Positions 12,361 through 17,688 of a stretch of 64,000 nucleotides of DNA are shown one piece after another (position 1 is the first letter of the stretch; each line of letters starts with the position of its first letter). Source of the stretch: Fimbriimonas sp. (GTDB taxonomy: Bacteria; Armatimonadota; Fimbriimonadia; Fimbriimonadales; Fimbriimonadaceae); contig JARLGV010000008.1 of NCBI GenBank assembly GCA_031292555.1, forward strand, positions 1 through 64,000. The letters are read 5' to 3'. The translations under genes and the position numbers were made by a program. Under the pieces are notes generated by a model. It was given only the letters and a program-made list of their open reading frames with translations. It was not told where the DNA came from and made no database searches.

Positions 12361-12560
12361 AACGGGATTGGGTGTGGCCGTCCGATCCCAACCCGAGAGA
12401 TTGCCTATACGCAGTTGGTTGTCCTAGAGGCAATCATGAGACCGGAGCGACCGACAACCCCAATCCCGTAGGGATTCCGTACGTTAGCCCATGGTTGCCC
12501 TCGAGGCAACCATGGGAACCGCGGGGCAGCGGTGAATCCAACCTCGGAGAGGTTGCGTAT
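12361..12560. repeat. Left palindromic repeat array (opposed to the right array)
   Basis: Contains a perfect hairpin CCCATGGTTGCC-CTCGA-GGCAACCATGGG (12488-12516), a second palindrome CAACCTC-GGA-GAGGTTG (12539-12555), and degenerate copies at 12395-12440 and 12460-12475 (AATCCCGTAGGGATT). Read on the minus strand, their order matches the array downstream of the transposase, so the two arrays form a long imperfect inverted repeat around that gene. Confidence 0.85.
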
Positions 12561-12656
12561 GGGCTACCGCATGTCGATGACTCCCTTGCAGAATGATCGG
12601 TCCCCTTGGACCCAACGGCCTATCCTGTTATTCTTATCAGGTCAGGATGTCCAATT

Positions 12657-13112
12657 ATGCCGCAATCTTTCTACTCTGTCCATCTCCATCTTGTCTTCTC
12701 GACCAAAAATCGGCATCCGTTTCTCACGGACAAGGACCTTAGGCAGGAGGTCCACCGCTACTTGGCTGGGATATCCAAGACGCTTGGCTGCGACCCGATC
12801 ATGATTGGCGGAGTCAGCGACCACGTACACATCCTGGCTCGCCTCGGGAAGCAGACGGCAACCCAGACATGGGTGAAAGAGGTTAAGCGCGTTTCCTCAG
12901 CCTGGATAAAGGAACGAGACCGTCGATTGTCGGAGTTCGCGTGGCAAAGCGGCTACGGCATGTTCGCCGTCGATTCGAAAGGGGTCGAACCGGTGCGACG
13001 GTATATCGAAGTCCAAGACGAACACCATCGCAAGTTTTCGTTCCAGGACGAATTCAGAAGGCTGCTCCACGAGGAAGGAATCGAATTCGATGAGCGATAC
13101 ATCTGGGATTAG
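12657..13112 (+). CDS. IS200-type Y1 transposase (RAYT-like)
   Basis: A 151-residue HUH-superfamily single-strand transposase. The start is ATG 12657 (MPQSFYSVHLHLVFSTK); an upstream in-frame extension to 12606 is not homologous-looking. H56-V-H58 (SDHVHIL) is the metal-binding HUH motif and Y116 (RRYIEVQDEHH) the nucleophilic tyrosine, so it appears intact. Opposed arrays of palindromes flank it, as with REP-associated tyrosine transposases that mobilise or maintain REP elements. It could equally be a solo IS200-like element. Confidence 0.88.
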   Translation: MPQSFYSVHLHLVFSTKNRHPFLTDKDLRQEVHRYLAGISKTLGCDPIMIGGVSDHVHILARLGKQTATQTWVKEVKRVSSAWIKERDRRLSEFAWQSGYGMFAVDSKGVEPVRRYIEVQDEHHRKFSFQDEFRRLLHEEGIEFDERYIWD

Positions 13113-13149
13113 GCGGTGTCCTACGGGTTTTGAGGCTTTCGCGGTAACG

Positions 13150-13412
13150 GATACACAACCTCTCCGAGGTTGGATTCCCTGCTACCGACCGGACCCATGG
13201 TTGCCTTGAGGGCAACCATGGGCTAGGGTATGGAATCCCTTCGGGATTCGGGAGTGTCGACCGCATCGGTTCCCATGGTTGCCTTGAGGGCAGCCATGGG
13301 CTAAGGTATGGAATCCCTTCGGGATTGGGGTGGTCGACCGCATCGGTTCCCATGGTTGCCTTGAGGGCAGCCATGGGCTAGGGTATGGAATCCCTTCGGG
13401 ATAGGGAGGGTC
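13150..13412. repeat. Right palindromic repeat array, three ~77 bp units
   Basis: The array opens with CAACCTC-TCC-GAGGTTG (13156-13172). Three direct units then begin at 13194, 13272 and 13349 (periods 78 and 77). Each holds a CCCATGGTTGCC / GGC(A/G)(A/G)CCATGGG hairpin followed by a GGAATCCCTTCGGGATT palindrome. The units are nearly identical, pointing to recent amplification. Open frames across it on the minus strand are translations of the repeat and are not genes. Confidence 0.9.
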
Positions 13413-14593: not shown

Positions 14594-15019
14594 CTAAGGT
14601 GATCTCACCATCGACGCGATATGGGGAGAGAGTCTCAGGAAGTGCTTCGCGTTCAACGTGTATATTGCCTCGGCGTTCACCCTTAGGGCGCATTGAGCCA
14701 GTAGTGCATCGTAGATGCCTCCTCCGAAGACCTGTTGGGAGGCCGCCGAACGTATCGCATCACCATATTCTGAGTCACTCAGCGTAACGATGCTGAGGTT
14801 CGCTTGGACGTCGTCCAAGAAGAGCAGGGCCTCCGTGGCTCCAACTCGCCTCGGTGGCGGCATGCCCGTGAGTGTTCCATAGACCTCGGCAAGGCTGTGA
14901 GCACCACAACTTGTCTCGCTCTTTCCAAAGCGAAGAAACAGATCTAGACTCGCATTGTGATGGACGTGATCGCCATAAAACGTCGCGACCAGCACTGAGG
15001 TATCGAGAAATGCCTTCAA
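14594..15019 (-). CDS. vapC: PIN-domain toxin, VapC family
   Basis: A 141-residue PIN-fold ribonuclease. The acidic active site is visible: D6 in MKAFLDTSV, E45 in HSLAEVYGTL and D104 in GGGIYDALLA, with a terminal TLNAKHF segment. VapC toxins cleave tRNA or rRNA and stop translation until neutralised by the cognate antitoxin. The gene overlaps the antitoxin gene by 4 bp, the standard type II arrangement. The full catalytic set suggests it is active. Confidence 0.92.
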   Translation of the reverse strand: MKAFLDTSVLVATFYGDHVHHNASLDLFLRFGKSETSCGAHSLAEVYGTLTGMPPPRRVGATEALLFLDDVQANLSIVTLSDSEYGDAIRSAASQQVFGGGIYDALLAQCALRVNAEAIYTLNAKHFLRLSPHIASMVRSP

Positions 15020-15279
15020 TCTTGCCCTGAGGTCCGATTCGCCCTCATCTGGTCAAGCGCATGATTTGCCTCCTCCTGACCTAGAAGCACCCCGCTTCGA
15101 AAAACCCAAACTCCTCTTTCCTTTTGCAGAGGAGAGGCGTGTCGTTCGGGCCGGAGAGTCAGCCCGTTTGAATCGAAGGTCATGTCCAGCATGTCCCCCG
15201 GCCTAATACCAAGGGCTTCGCGCGCACGCTTTGGGATGACAACCCGGCCCGCTTGGTCGATGGTGAGTCTACCATTCAT
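15016..15279 (-). CDS. vapB: AbrB/SpoVT-fold antitoxin, VapB family
   Basis: An 87-residue protein. The N-terminal swapped-hairpin domain (LTIDQAGRVVIPKRAREALG, then IRPGDMLDM) binds DNA, and the C-terminal half (residues 50-87) would bind and inhibit the PIN toxin encoded next. The start codon ATG 15279 lies inside one of two inverted repeats, so the protein probably represses its own transcription. No ribosome site precedes it, but TAATCT lies 6 nt upstream, suggesting a leaderless message. Confidence 0.9.
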   Translation of the reverse strand: MNGRLTIDQAGRVVIPKRAREALGIRPGDMLDMTFDSNGLTLRPERHASPLQKERGVWVFRSGVLLGQEEANHALDQMRANRTSGQD

Positions 15280-15354: not shown

Positions 15355-17688
15355 CTACCTCGACGCCCTAAGCGTCGCGCAGCCGAAGACGCCTCCGGCG
15401 GTGTTTCCTTCGTGCGCCACGAACCTCACTTGGATTTTGTTGTCGGCGTTAGCGGTCAGGGATGCCGGGATTGGGTACTCGATGTCGAACAGATGGCCGG
15501 GCTTGTTTTGGTGGAGCGATTCGGTTGCGATGCGTTGGTCGTTGACCACGATGTCGAACGTTCTGTCGCCTCCGTCGTCGCCCCAGTAGGTCACGCTGAG
15601 GGTCATCGGCGCGTCGGGGACGATCTTGAGGTCCCAGCCGAAACGCTTGCCGTCGCGGTAGTGGCGACCGTTGAACGGCCCGGTATTGCTCGATTCGGCG
15701 AACAGGTTGTGGCCGGTCTCAACCTCTCCACCCCCATCTACCAGAACTTGGTCCACGATCCGGCGATCCCGTGCCTGTTTGCTTGTTTCGATCGCGGCCA
15801 GATCAAGAGCCCGCCGACTCTTTGGAGTGACGAGGTCCCAGTAGACGCCGAATCGTTGATCGATGATGTCGTAAAGCGGAATGAACGTGACCGGGCGGGC
15901 GATGCCGACAGTCTGAAACGTGAGCGCCTTGCCCGACACCGGCTTTAGCCAGCTACTCGGGTCCTGGAGGGCGACCTTCAAGTAACCGGTGTTGACGTCC
16001 TCTGCGATAGGCGCGTCCTTCTCCATGACGCCCGCCAAAACGATCGGACCGAACATGACGGCCTGTAGGTTGGGATCGTCAGGCATCGGCTGGCTGTGAA
16101 GCCGCATCGGCGTCGTGATCCGGATCGTATCTCCGTCATGCCAGGTTCGACAAACCGTCAAGTATGAAGTTGGCTTGGCGGTCAAGTTCAACCGCTTTCC
16201 GTTGCAGGACACCGAGAACCCCGAAGCCCAATAGGGAACGTGGAAGTTCATTGGCATCGAAGTCGGTCGGGACAGGTGAACCTTGAAAGTCGAACCTTGC
16301 TCTTCCGGAAAACGAGTGGTCTGGGTCAAGCGCAGCCCCTTGTCCGCCCAGTTGAGTTCGGAAGGGACGTACAAGTTCACATACACGCCCTTCGAGTCGT
16401 GGAAGTAGATGCTGTCGTTCAGCTTCGCGAACGACTCGATTCCAGTGCAGTAACAGCACCAGAACGTCTCACGTGGAGTGCCCCAGTTCTTTGTGTCCCC
16501 GCCGGCAAGCGGTAGGTAGTAGATCATCATCCCGGTATCGGGACGCTGAGCGGGGAGAATTCCGTTGAAATATGCGCGCTCGTAGAAATCGGCGTATCGT
16601 GGGTCGCCAGTCCATCGAATCAGGTTCCGGGTGACCTTGAGCATGTTGTACGTCGTGCACGTTTCCTGATTGTTGGAGACGAGGGTGTGGGCCAGCGCAT
16701 CGGGATCTCCCCAGAACTCCGCCTTGTTGTCGCCTCCCGTCGCATAGGAGCGGTGGTTGGCGATCCGGTCCCAGAAGTACTCGACCACCGTCCGATAGCT
16801 CGGATCGTCCAGCAGTTCATACCGCCGGGCCGCGCCAAGGATCTTCGGTATGTTGGTGTTGGCGTGGAGTCCGCTCAACGAATCGTGGCGCAGCGCAAGC
16901 GGACCCAGGATTGCCGCTTCGTCGAAACGATGCGCATAATCGAGATCGGCTCGGTTGTGAGCGATGGCGTAAAGGTTGTATTCCATCATTGCCATGCCTC
17001 CGTATTCCGTATGCATGGTCGCATCGAGTTGACCGTCAGTGAGTTTGGCTCCCCGACTCCGCAAATATTCGCCCATTCTCCGGGCCATATCGAGGGCATG
17101 GGCGTTCTCGAATACCTGATACACGTCGAGCAATCCCGTCACGAGCTTTTCGACGACGTAATAGGGCGCCCAGATCGGTCTGCCCGTCTCAACCCGGTCG
17201 AGGTAGCTGGTTGGAATGCCCGCGAGGAACTTGCCTCCGAGAGCCCTCTGGCACTTGGACAATTCCTCCACCAGGTAGCCGGCTCGGCTTTTCAGCCAAA
17301 CGTCACCCGTGCTCTTGTACATAAGCGCGAGGGTCGTCAGGTAGTGGGCGGTGAACGTTCCGCGAATCTCGCTGCTTGGCGACTCCCAACCTCCGAACGG
17401 CTTTCCTGGCGTCGGTAGCCCGGCGTTGTGCCGAAACGGAAAGAGAAGTCCGTCGGTGTCGATCGACTTGATATACCGAAGATCGGCCTCCATTTCCCGT
17501 TTCTCAAGCCCGTCCAAGAGTCGGACCTGACCCATGTCGAACGGCTCCAACTTGAATCGCGGATCGGGAGGAAACCTCAGGTCCGTCGAATCGGGCGCCG
17601 GTTTCTGGCAGTGTACGGGGTCTACGGCGCCGTATGCAGTTCCAAGGCAAAGGAGAGAGAGGCTGAAAGCGATAACGCTGGTTCGCAT
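15355..17688 (-). CDS. GH127-type beta-L-arabinofuranosidase
   Basis: A 777-residue exported enzyme (signal peptide 1-20, AYGA-VDP). The (alpha/alpha)6 barrel carries the family's unusual cysteine-zinc active site: ETCTTYNMLK gives E342 and C344, and FWCCYCTG gives C411 and C412, with E324 (NKAEFWGDP) as likely acid/base, in line with HypBA1-type enzymes where a zinc-bound cysteine is the nucleophile. It releases beta-L-arabinofuranose from plant glycoproteins or pectin side chains. A C-terminal beta-sandwich follows. Start ATG 17688 has AGGG upstream. Formerly DUF1680. Confidence 0.92.
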   Translation of the reverse strand: MRTSVIAFSLSLLCLGTAYGAVDPVHCQKPAPDSTDLRFPPDPRFKLEPFDMGQVRLLDGLEKREMEADLRYIKSIDTDGLLFPFRHNAGLPTPGKPFGGWESPSSEIRGTFTAHYLTTLALMYKSTGDVWLKSRAGYLVEELSKCQRALGGKFLAGIPTSYLDRVETGRPIWAPYYVVEKLVTGLLDVYQVFENAHALDMARRMGEYLRSRGAKLTDGQLDATMHTEYGGMAMMEYNLYAIAHNRADLDYAHRFDEAAILGPLALRHDSLSGLHANTNIPKILGAARRYELLDDPSYRTVVEYFWDRIANHRSYATGGDNKAEFWGDPDALAHTLVSNNQETCTTYNMLKVTRNLIRWTGDPRYADFYERAYFNGILPAQRPDTGMMIYYLPLAGGDTKNWGTPRETFWCCYCTGIESFAKLNDSIYFHDSKGVYVNLYVPSELNWADKGLRLTQTTRFPEEQGSTFKVHLSRPTSMPMNFHVPYWASGFSVSCNGKRLNLTAKPTSYLTVCRTWHDGDTIRITTPMRLHSQPMPDDPNLQAVMFGPIVLAGVMEKDAPIAEDVNTGYLKVALQDPSSWLKPVSGKALTFQTVGIARPVTFIPLYDIIDQRFGVYWDLVTPKSRRALDLAAIETSKQARDRRIVDQVLVDGGGEVETGHNLFAESSNTGPFNGRHYRDGKRFGWDLKIVPDAPMTLSVTYWGDDGGDRTFDIVVNDQRIATESLHQNKPGHLFDIEYPIPASLTANADNKIQVRFVAHEGNTAGGVFGCATLRASR

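Follow-up and report, generated by a model that had tools for sequence, protein, structure and literature searches.

The window analyzed here, a 64,000-nucleotide stretch of a Fimbriimonas sp. genome, carries a Y1 transposase gene set between two opposed arrays of palindromes (Table 1). The encoded protein retains an HUH motif (DHVH), a WQ pair and the catalytic Tyr, within YIEVQDEHH, so that the original prediction of an intact HUH motif and Tyr holds. It matches the Pfam family Y1_Tnp with 84 bits and passes the NCBIfam model for IS200 transposases (NF033573; 64 bits, cut-off 55). Sequence profile and predicted fold (pLDDT 90) both give ISDra2 and IS608 TnpA as the nearest solved structures, with E. 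coli TnpAREP (4er8) a more distant match to the predicted fold. The chosen ATG start aligns with those of relatives; a longer open reading frame (ORF) from a TTG at 12606 was rejected, as relatives do not share that start. Judged by its motif signature (DHVH, WQ, Y---Q--HH), the protein is assigned to TnpA-Y1 subclass 1.2; the published signature is DH[IV]H, WQ and Y---Q--HH in about 148 aa (Quentin et al. 2018, PMC6006769). The gene had been described as RAYT-like, which suits its REP-associated arrangement but not the protein, which scores 27 bits against the NCBIfam model REP_Tyr_transpos (cut-off 80) and whose Y---Q--HH signature is not that of the canonical RAYT family.

Table 1. Features of the element and its surroundings, in window coordinates
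Feature	Position	Strand	Remarks
Left array	12362..12555		inverted repeat of the right array
Outermost left unit, degenerate	12362..12440	.	B-like hairpin 12412-12440, arm 12362-12382
Left hairpin C	12462..12476	+	AATCCC-gta-GGGATT
TTAG tag, possible guide	12484..12487	+	immediately 5' of left hairpin B
Left hairpin B	12488..12516	+	CCCATGGTTGCC-ctcga-GGCAACCATGGG
Left hairpin A	12539..12555	+	CAACCTC-gga-GAGGTTG
tnpA-Y1 gene	12657..13112	+	151 aa; Y1_Tnp, IS200 model, solved relatives, predicted fold
Right array	13156..13409		inverted repeat of the left array
Right hairpin A	13156..13172	-	
Right hairpin B, unit 1	13194..13222	-	CTA tag 13223-13225
Right hairpin C, unit 1	13233..13249	-	covariance-model match
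Second right unit, C-TAG-B	13270..13328	-	covariance-model match
Third right unit, C-TAG-B	13347..13405	-	covariance-model match
MazE-type antitoxin and PIN-domain toxin genes	14594..15279	-	just downstream of the element
GH127 beta-L-arabinofuranosidase-like protein	15355..17688	-	with DUF6805 domain

The left and right arrays are inverted repeats of each other, complementary over 81 nt at 88%, 59 nt at 90% and 46 nt at 85%. Reading outward from the gene, both present hairpin A (CAACCTC..GAGGTTG), the TAG-tagged hairpin B (CCCATGGTTGCC..GGCAACCATGGG) and hairpin C (AATCCC..GGGATT), confirming the claim that the reverse-complemented left array has the same order of palindromes as the right. 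The left side consists of one good unit and a degenerate outer one, and the right side of three B-C units. The three right units, said to be nearly identical over 77 to 78 bp, do have that spacing; two are 95% identical, but the first is only 79% identical to the reference unit. The B pattern has 8 matches in the window, against 0.00 expected from 100 shuffles of it, and the feet of the window's hairpins are TTAG and CTAG. Within each array the units stand head to tail in a single orientation, whereas the REPs of a BIME alternate, so the suggested orientation as REP/BIME pairs does not apply. By comparison with a duplicated element in a relative (loci L091 and L095, described below), hairpin C of the first right unit is likely the outer edge of the basic element.

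Hairpins elsewhere in the genome and in relatives

The presence of the hairpins at other genomic sites had been named as the point on which the original prediction would turn, and they do recur: hairpin B is found on at least six other contigs. With up to three mismatches allowed, it has 22 occurrences spread over eight contigs (counting the window's own and one weak match), and a reversed-pattern control gave 0 matches. A covariance model built for the C-TAG-B unit returned at least 61 matches in 27 clusters, a lower bound, as the best 150 of 2511 first-look candidates were scored, and many of these matches are related but different hairpin families. The units avoid long ORFs. By ORF heuristics, on which the intergenic assignment depends, 26 of the 27 clusters are clear of coding-like ORFs of at least 150 codons, while a random 63-bp interval overlaps one 81% of the time (P about 2e-18); nine of these 26 overlap only shorter, doubtful ORFs. 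The expectation that all copies are intergenic has one clear exception, a cluster on contig C132 (C132:15684-15746; L270 1985-2047) inside a 634-codon ORF.

The same contig holds a second Y1 gene (L049 2480-2925; G000:C132:10980-11423, minus strand), which is decayed, with internal TGA and TAG codons, and is flanked by different hairpins of its own (left, CCCTGGG..CCCAAGGG; right, CCTTGGG..CCCAAGG and GCACC..GGTGC). Contig C80 (L040) ends in 125 nt that are identical to window positions 12523..12647 on the plus strand and adjoin a left array unlike the window's, and contig C26 starts within a right-type array. Judging from these contig ends, the simplest reading would be a second copy of the element with its core collapsed in the assembly. 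Six contigs in all have an end inside a hairpin array or no more than about 1 kb from one (the ends of L040 and L048 and the starts of L039, L042, L043 and L047), which probably makes the arrays look shorter and the copies fewer than they really are. Two of these loci carry longer tandem units of about 108 to 115 bp with an extra CCGGAGCGGGCTTTCGCCCTCGGCCTC segment (L043 84-561 and L042 981-1322), members of a related repeat family that has no assembled transposase, and at L045 2140-2300 a simple-repeat run of AACCCGC/AAACCCGC adjoins a degenerate hairpin unit.

Relatives of the gene are present in 30 of the 85 genomes of the window's family, with up to 10 divergent copies, and inverted repeats around the gene exceed the 95% null at 56 of 66 loci. 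The layout runs from a short hairpin C through a spacer with NNAG at its end to a long hairpin B, then over a second spacer to a short hairpin A and the gene, followed by the mirror image; hairpin sequence differs from locus to locus while the C-NNAG-B-A layout stays. We use "trident" for C, the 10 to 13 nt ending in NNAG, B, a spacer and A. A stricter test found TAG touching a hairpin upstream at 18 of 65 loci (0.35 in shuffles), CTA touching one downstream at 18 of 65 (0.6 in shuffles) and both together at 14 of 65 (0.0 expected in shuffles). Because feet vary (NNAG) and stems are bulged, this test catches about 28% of flanks, and the search for inverted repeats serves better as a measure.

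A wider set, fetched by protein profile and drawn from about ten phyla, typically shows the same anatomy. Y---Q--HH and WQ are present at 80 of 80 loci and DHxH at 77 of 80. The inverted-repeat test is passed by 51 of 77 loci, among them 22 of 29 in Verrucomicrobiota, 18 of 23 in Planctomycetota and 3 of 12 in the Bacteroidota group; the 26 that fail include many from Bacteroidota and allies, and at several failing Bacteroidota loci hairpin sets are visible by eye. A C hairpin, AG foot and B could be parsed in 103 of 286 flanks, compared with 1 in shuffled sequence and 24 in the wrong orientation. The C-to-B spacing is 10 to 13 nt in 86 of these 103, and the foot is NNAG, with TAG commonest and GTAG in 9. 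Hairpins A and C tend to be co-oriented (tail identity 3.4/7; shuffles reach no more than 3.0). There is also a weak covariation between hairpin B and the protein, the two similarities rising together (Mantel r 0.20, P 0.008). Loci L055 (G021) and L133 are identical. The gene-and-hairpin system is found in Armatimonadota, Verrucomicrobiota, Planctomycetota, Acidobacteriota and others, and the interleaving of phyla in a quick tree agrees with transfer, though it is no proof of it.

Duplicated elements and gene-less units

Evidence of movement comes from relatives, above all from G007, a complete genome in one contig of 5.23 Mb. Its copies L091 and L095 are 98.5% identical over 651 to 653 bp; the identity begins at GCAGCCCGGAACGGGC and stops at GCCCGTTCCGGGCTGC, the outer edge of hairpin C being its exact limit on either side, and the flanks are unrelated. 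No target-site duplication was found at the edges of these two copies, and IS200-type movement predicts none. Element-limited identity ending at or near hairpin C is also seen between the planctomycete metagenome-assembled genome (MAG) loci L192 and L196 (90%) and between L162 and L164 in two Verrucomicrobiaceae genomes (91%), and a pair in G012 is 87% identical up to its own hairpin C. Near-identical copies within a genome occur as pairs in G007, G012 and one MAG, perhaps also as two in the window's genome, with divergent paralogues elsewhere. The last gene codons in L091 and L095 (GGGATTAG) belong to the inverted repeat, and the conserved C-terminal WD-stop may reflect a function of this DNA as an element end.

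G007 also contains about 15 dispersed solo units that lack the gene and outnumber its full copies, the longer ones being about 92 bp with the order C-B-A. Ten of the 15 are clear of ORFs, 4 touch short doubtful ORFs and 1 lies within a 447-codon ORF (L224 1501-1589); this unit and the one in the 634-codon ORF of the window's genome are possible in-frame gene insertions. Together, near-identical copies ending at hairpin C, unrelated flanks and solo units show that whole units have moved and that gene-less repeats have spread. The proposal that the element may be active and spreading its repeats stands as regards past movement in relatives, seen in the hairpin-C-bounded duplicates and the solo units, but not as regards present activity. 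A clean empty site for the window's element was not found, its flanks being without synteny in 20 genomes of the genus. When an empty site for the element at G057:C78 was sought in G056, the locus had been replaced by another gene, and G009 versus G016 was set aside as an insertion case, as a tandem second gene is present and the difference is no clean insertion.

Placement among known systems

We regard it as probable, at roughly three chances in four, that the locus is a REPtron-like mobile element run by an IS200-type HUH/Y1 transposase, with the signature of subclass 1.2, inside inverted three-hairpin ends. The published account of subclass 1.2 gives REPs as "no", describes these proteins as generally without IS end structures and not sharing IS properties, and places them mainly in Cyanobacteria and Bacteroidetes (PMC6006769). 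Our loci resemble that subclass in DH[IV]H, WQ, Y---Q--HH, a length of about 150 aa and low, divergent copies per genome, and depart from its description in their REP-like tridents and in the hairpin ends at most loci of both the family and the wider set (56/66 and 51/77). The assignment is kept because the absence of REPs is a published description and not a defining criterion.

The leading alternative is that an IS200/IS605 insertion sequence of the ordinary kind has undergone local amplification of its end hairpins and that the dispersed hairpins are decayed IS ends. The protein passes the IS200 model, shares its fold and catalytic motifs with IS608 and ISDra2 (subclass 1.1), its nearest structures, and sits in a discrete element of about 650 bp without TnpB, as in IS200; near-identical two-copy elements with sharp ends fit as well. 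We nevertheless hold this explanation to be unlikely, since the protein has the class 1.2 motif and the ends are inverted three-hairpin units, and since the gene-less units of G007, the longer of which span a trident from A to C, outnumber the full copies. Copies within a genome are moreover mostly divergent paralogues, against 99% published for subclass 1.1 IS copies (PMC6006769).

A canonical class 2 RAYT/REPtron like that of E. coli, in a new phylum, would likewise have its Y1 gene flanked by tagged hairpins in inverted orientation, with further copies dispersed between genes (PMC2817692, PMC6006769), and the TAG-containing 5' foot speaks for it. Such a system is nonetheless very improbable here: the protein is of class 1 type, with Y---Q--HH in place of the class 2 Y---NP motif and a REP_Tyr_transpos score far under the cut-off, the foot is NNAG, with GTAG one of its rarer forms, where class 2 has GT[AG]G, and the additional short hairpins A and C give three hairpins per end. 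Tandem arrays in one orientation and duplication of the whole element with fixed ends are further differences from the class 2 REPtron. That the transposase is domesticated and moves nothing any longer, the hairpins having a host role as terminators or in nucleoid binding or repair, could draw on the single intact gene and one decayed relative in the assembled genome and on hairpins lying mostly between genes, as terminators would, but seems hardly credible beside duplications with exact hairpin-C ends, a patchy presence across the family (30/85 genomes, 0 to 10 copies) and phyla interleaved in the tree.

Two further systems share part of this anatomy. In TIRtrons (Di Nocera et al. 2013, PMC3733652), too, terminal inverted repeats enclose a Y1 gene, and some of these repeats are self-complementary and dispersed. 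Their TIRYTs, mostly of subclass 2.1 (PMC6006769), carry a helix-turn-helix tail, for which the 151-aa protein is too short. Class 3 TnpA-Y1 (Quentin et al. 2018) similarly combines IS and REPtron features with high-copy atypical hairpins in Planctomycetes and Acidobacteria, but has NHVH, W[TA], Y----Q and the foot CnGA.

Proposed mechanism and implications

By analogy with IS608 and ISDra2 TnpA and E. coli TnpAREP and their hairpins and guides, a dimeric transposase would most likely recognize hairpin B and its 5' NNAG foot on single-stranded DNA, with cleavage near the outer edge of hairpin C. The whole element would move occasionally through a single-stranded intermediate, and the short C-B-A or C-B unit more often, accumulating between genes; the tandem 77-bp arrays at the element ends may have grown by repeated unit insertion or by slippage. 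Since A resembles C and has the same orientation, one trident may be a minimal substrate by itself, and this would account for the solo units.

The general kind of system, a Y1 transposase with dispersed hairpins, or REPtron, is already known. What appears to be new is the pairing of subclass 1.2 with repeats, the conserved three-hairpin end and the mobility of a whole element with exact ends. In the open-access literature searched, with subscription papers and ISfinder outside the search, we found no description of subclass 1.2 with REPs. With somewhat less confidence than for the locus itself, we favor the broader view that the TnpA-Y1 proteins of subclass 1.2 serve as transposases for a REP system of its own, widespread and marked by a conserved three-hairpin end, and that complete elements of this system continue to transpose with their ends fixed.

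The dissemination of REPs was called poorly understood in the abstract of a 2021 TnpAREP paper (PMC8266576). A Y1 group said to be without REPs would possess its own family of cognate repeats across about ten phyla, and the system would explain a class of palindromic repeats at which the draft assembly breaks. Whole elements with defined ends and gene-less units share one genome, and trident oligonucleotides and the 650-bp element offer testable substrates for the passage from insertion sequence to repeat-spreading system. If this reading is true, the system stands between IS200 insertion sequences and REPtrons, and REP dispersal could be watched in it.
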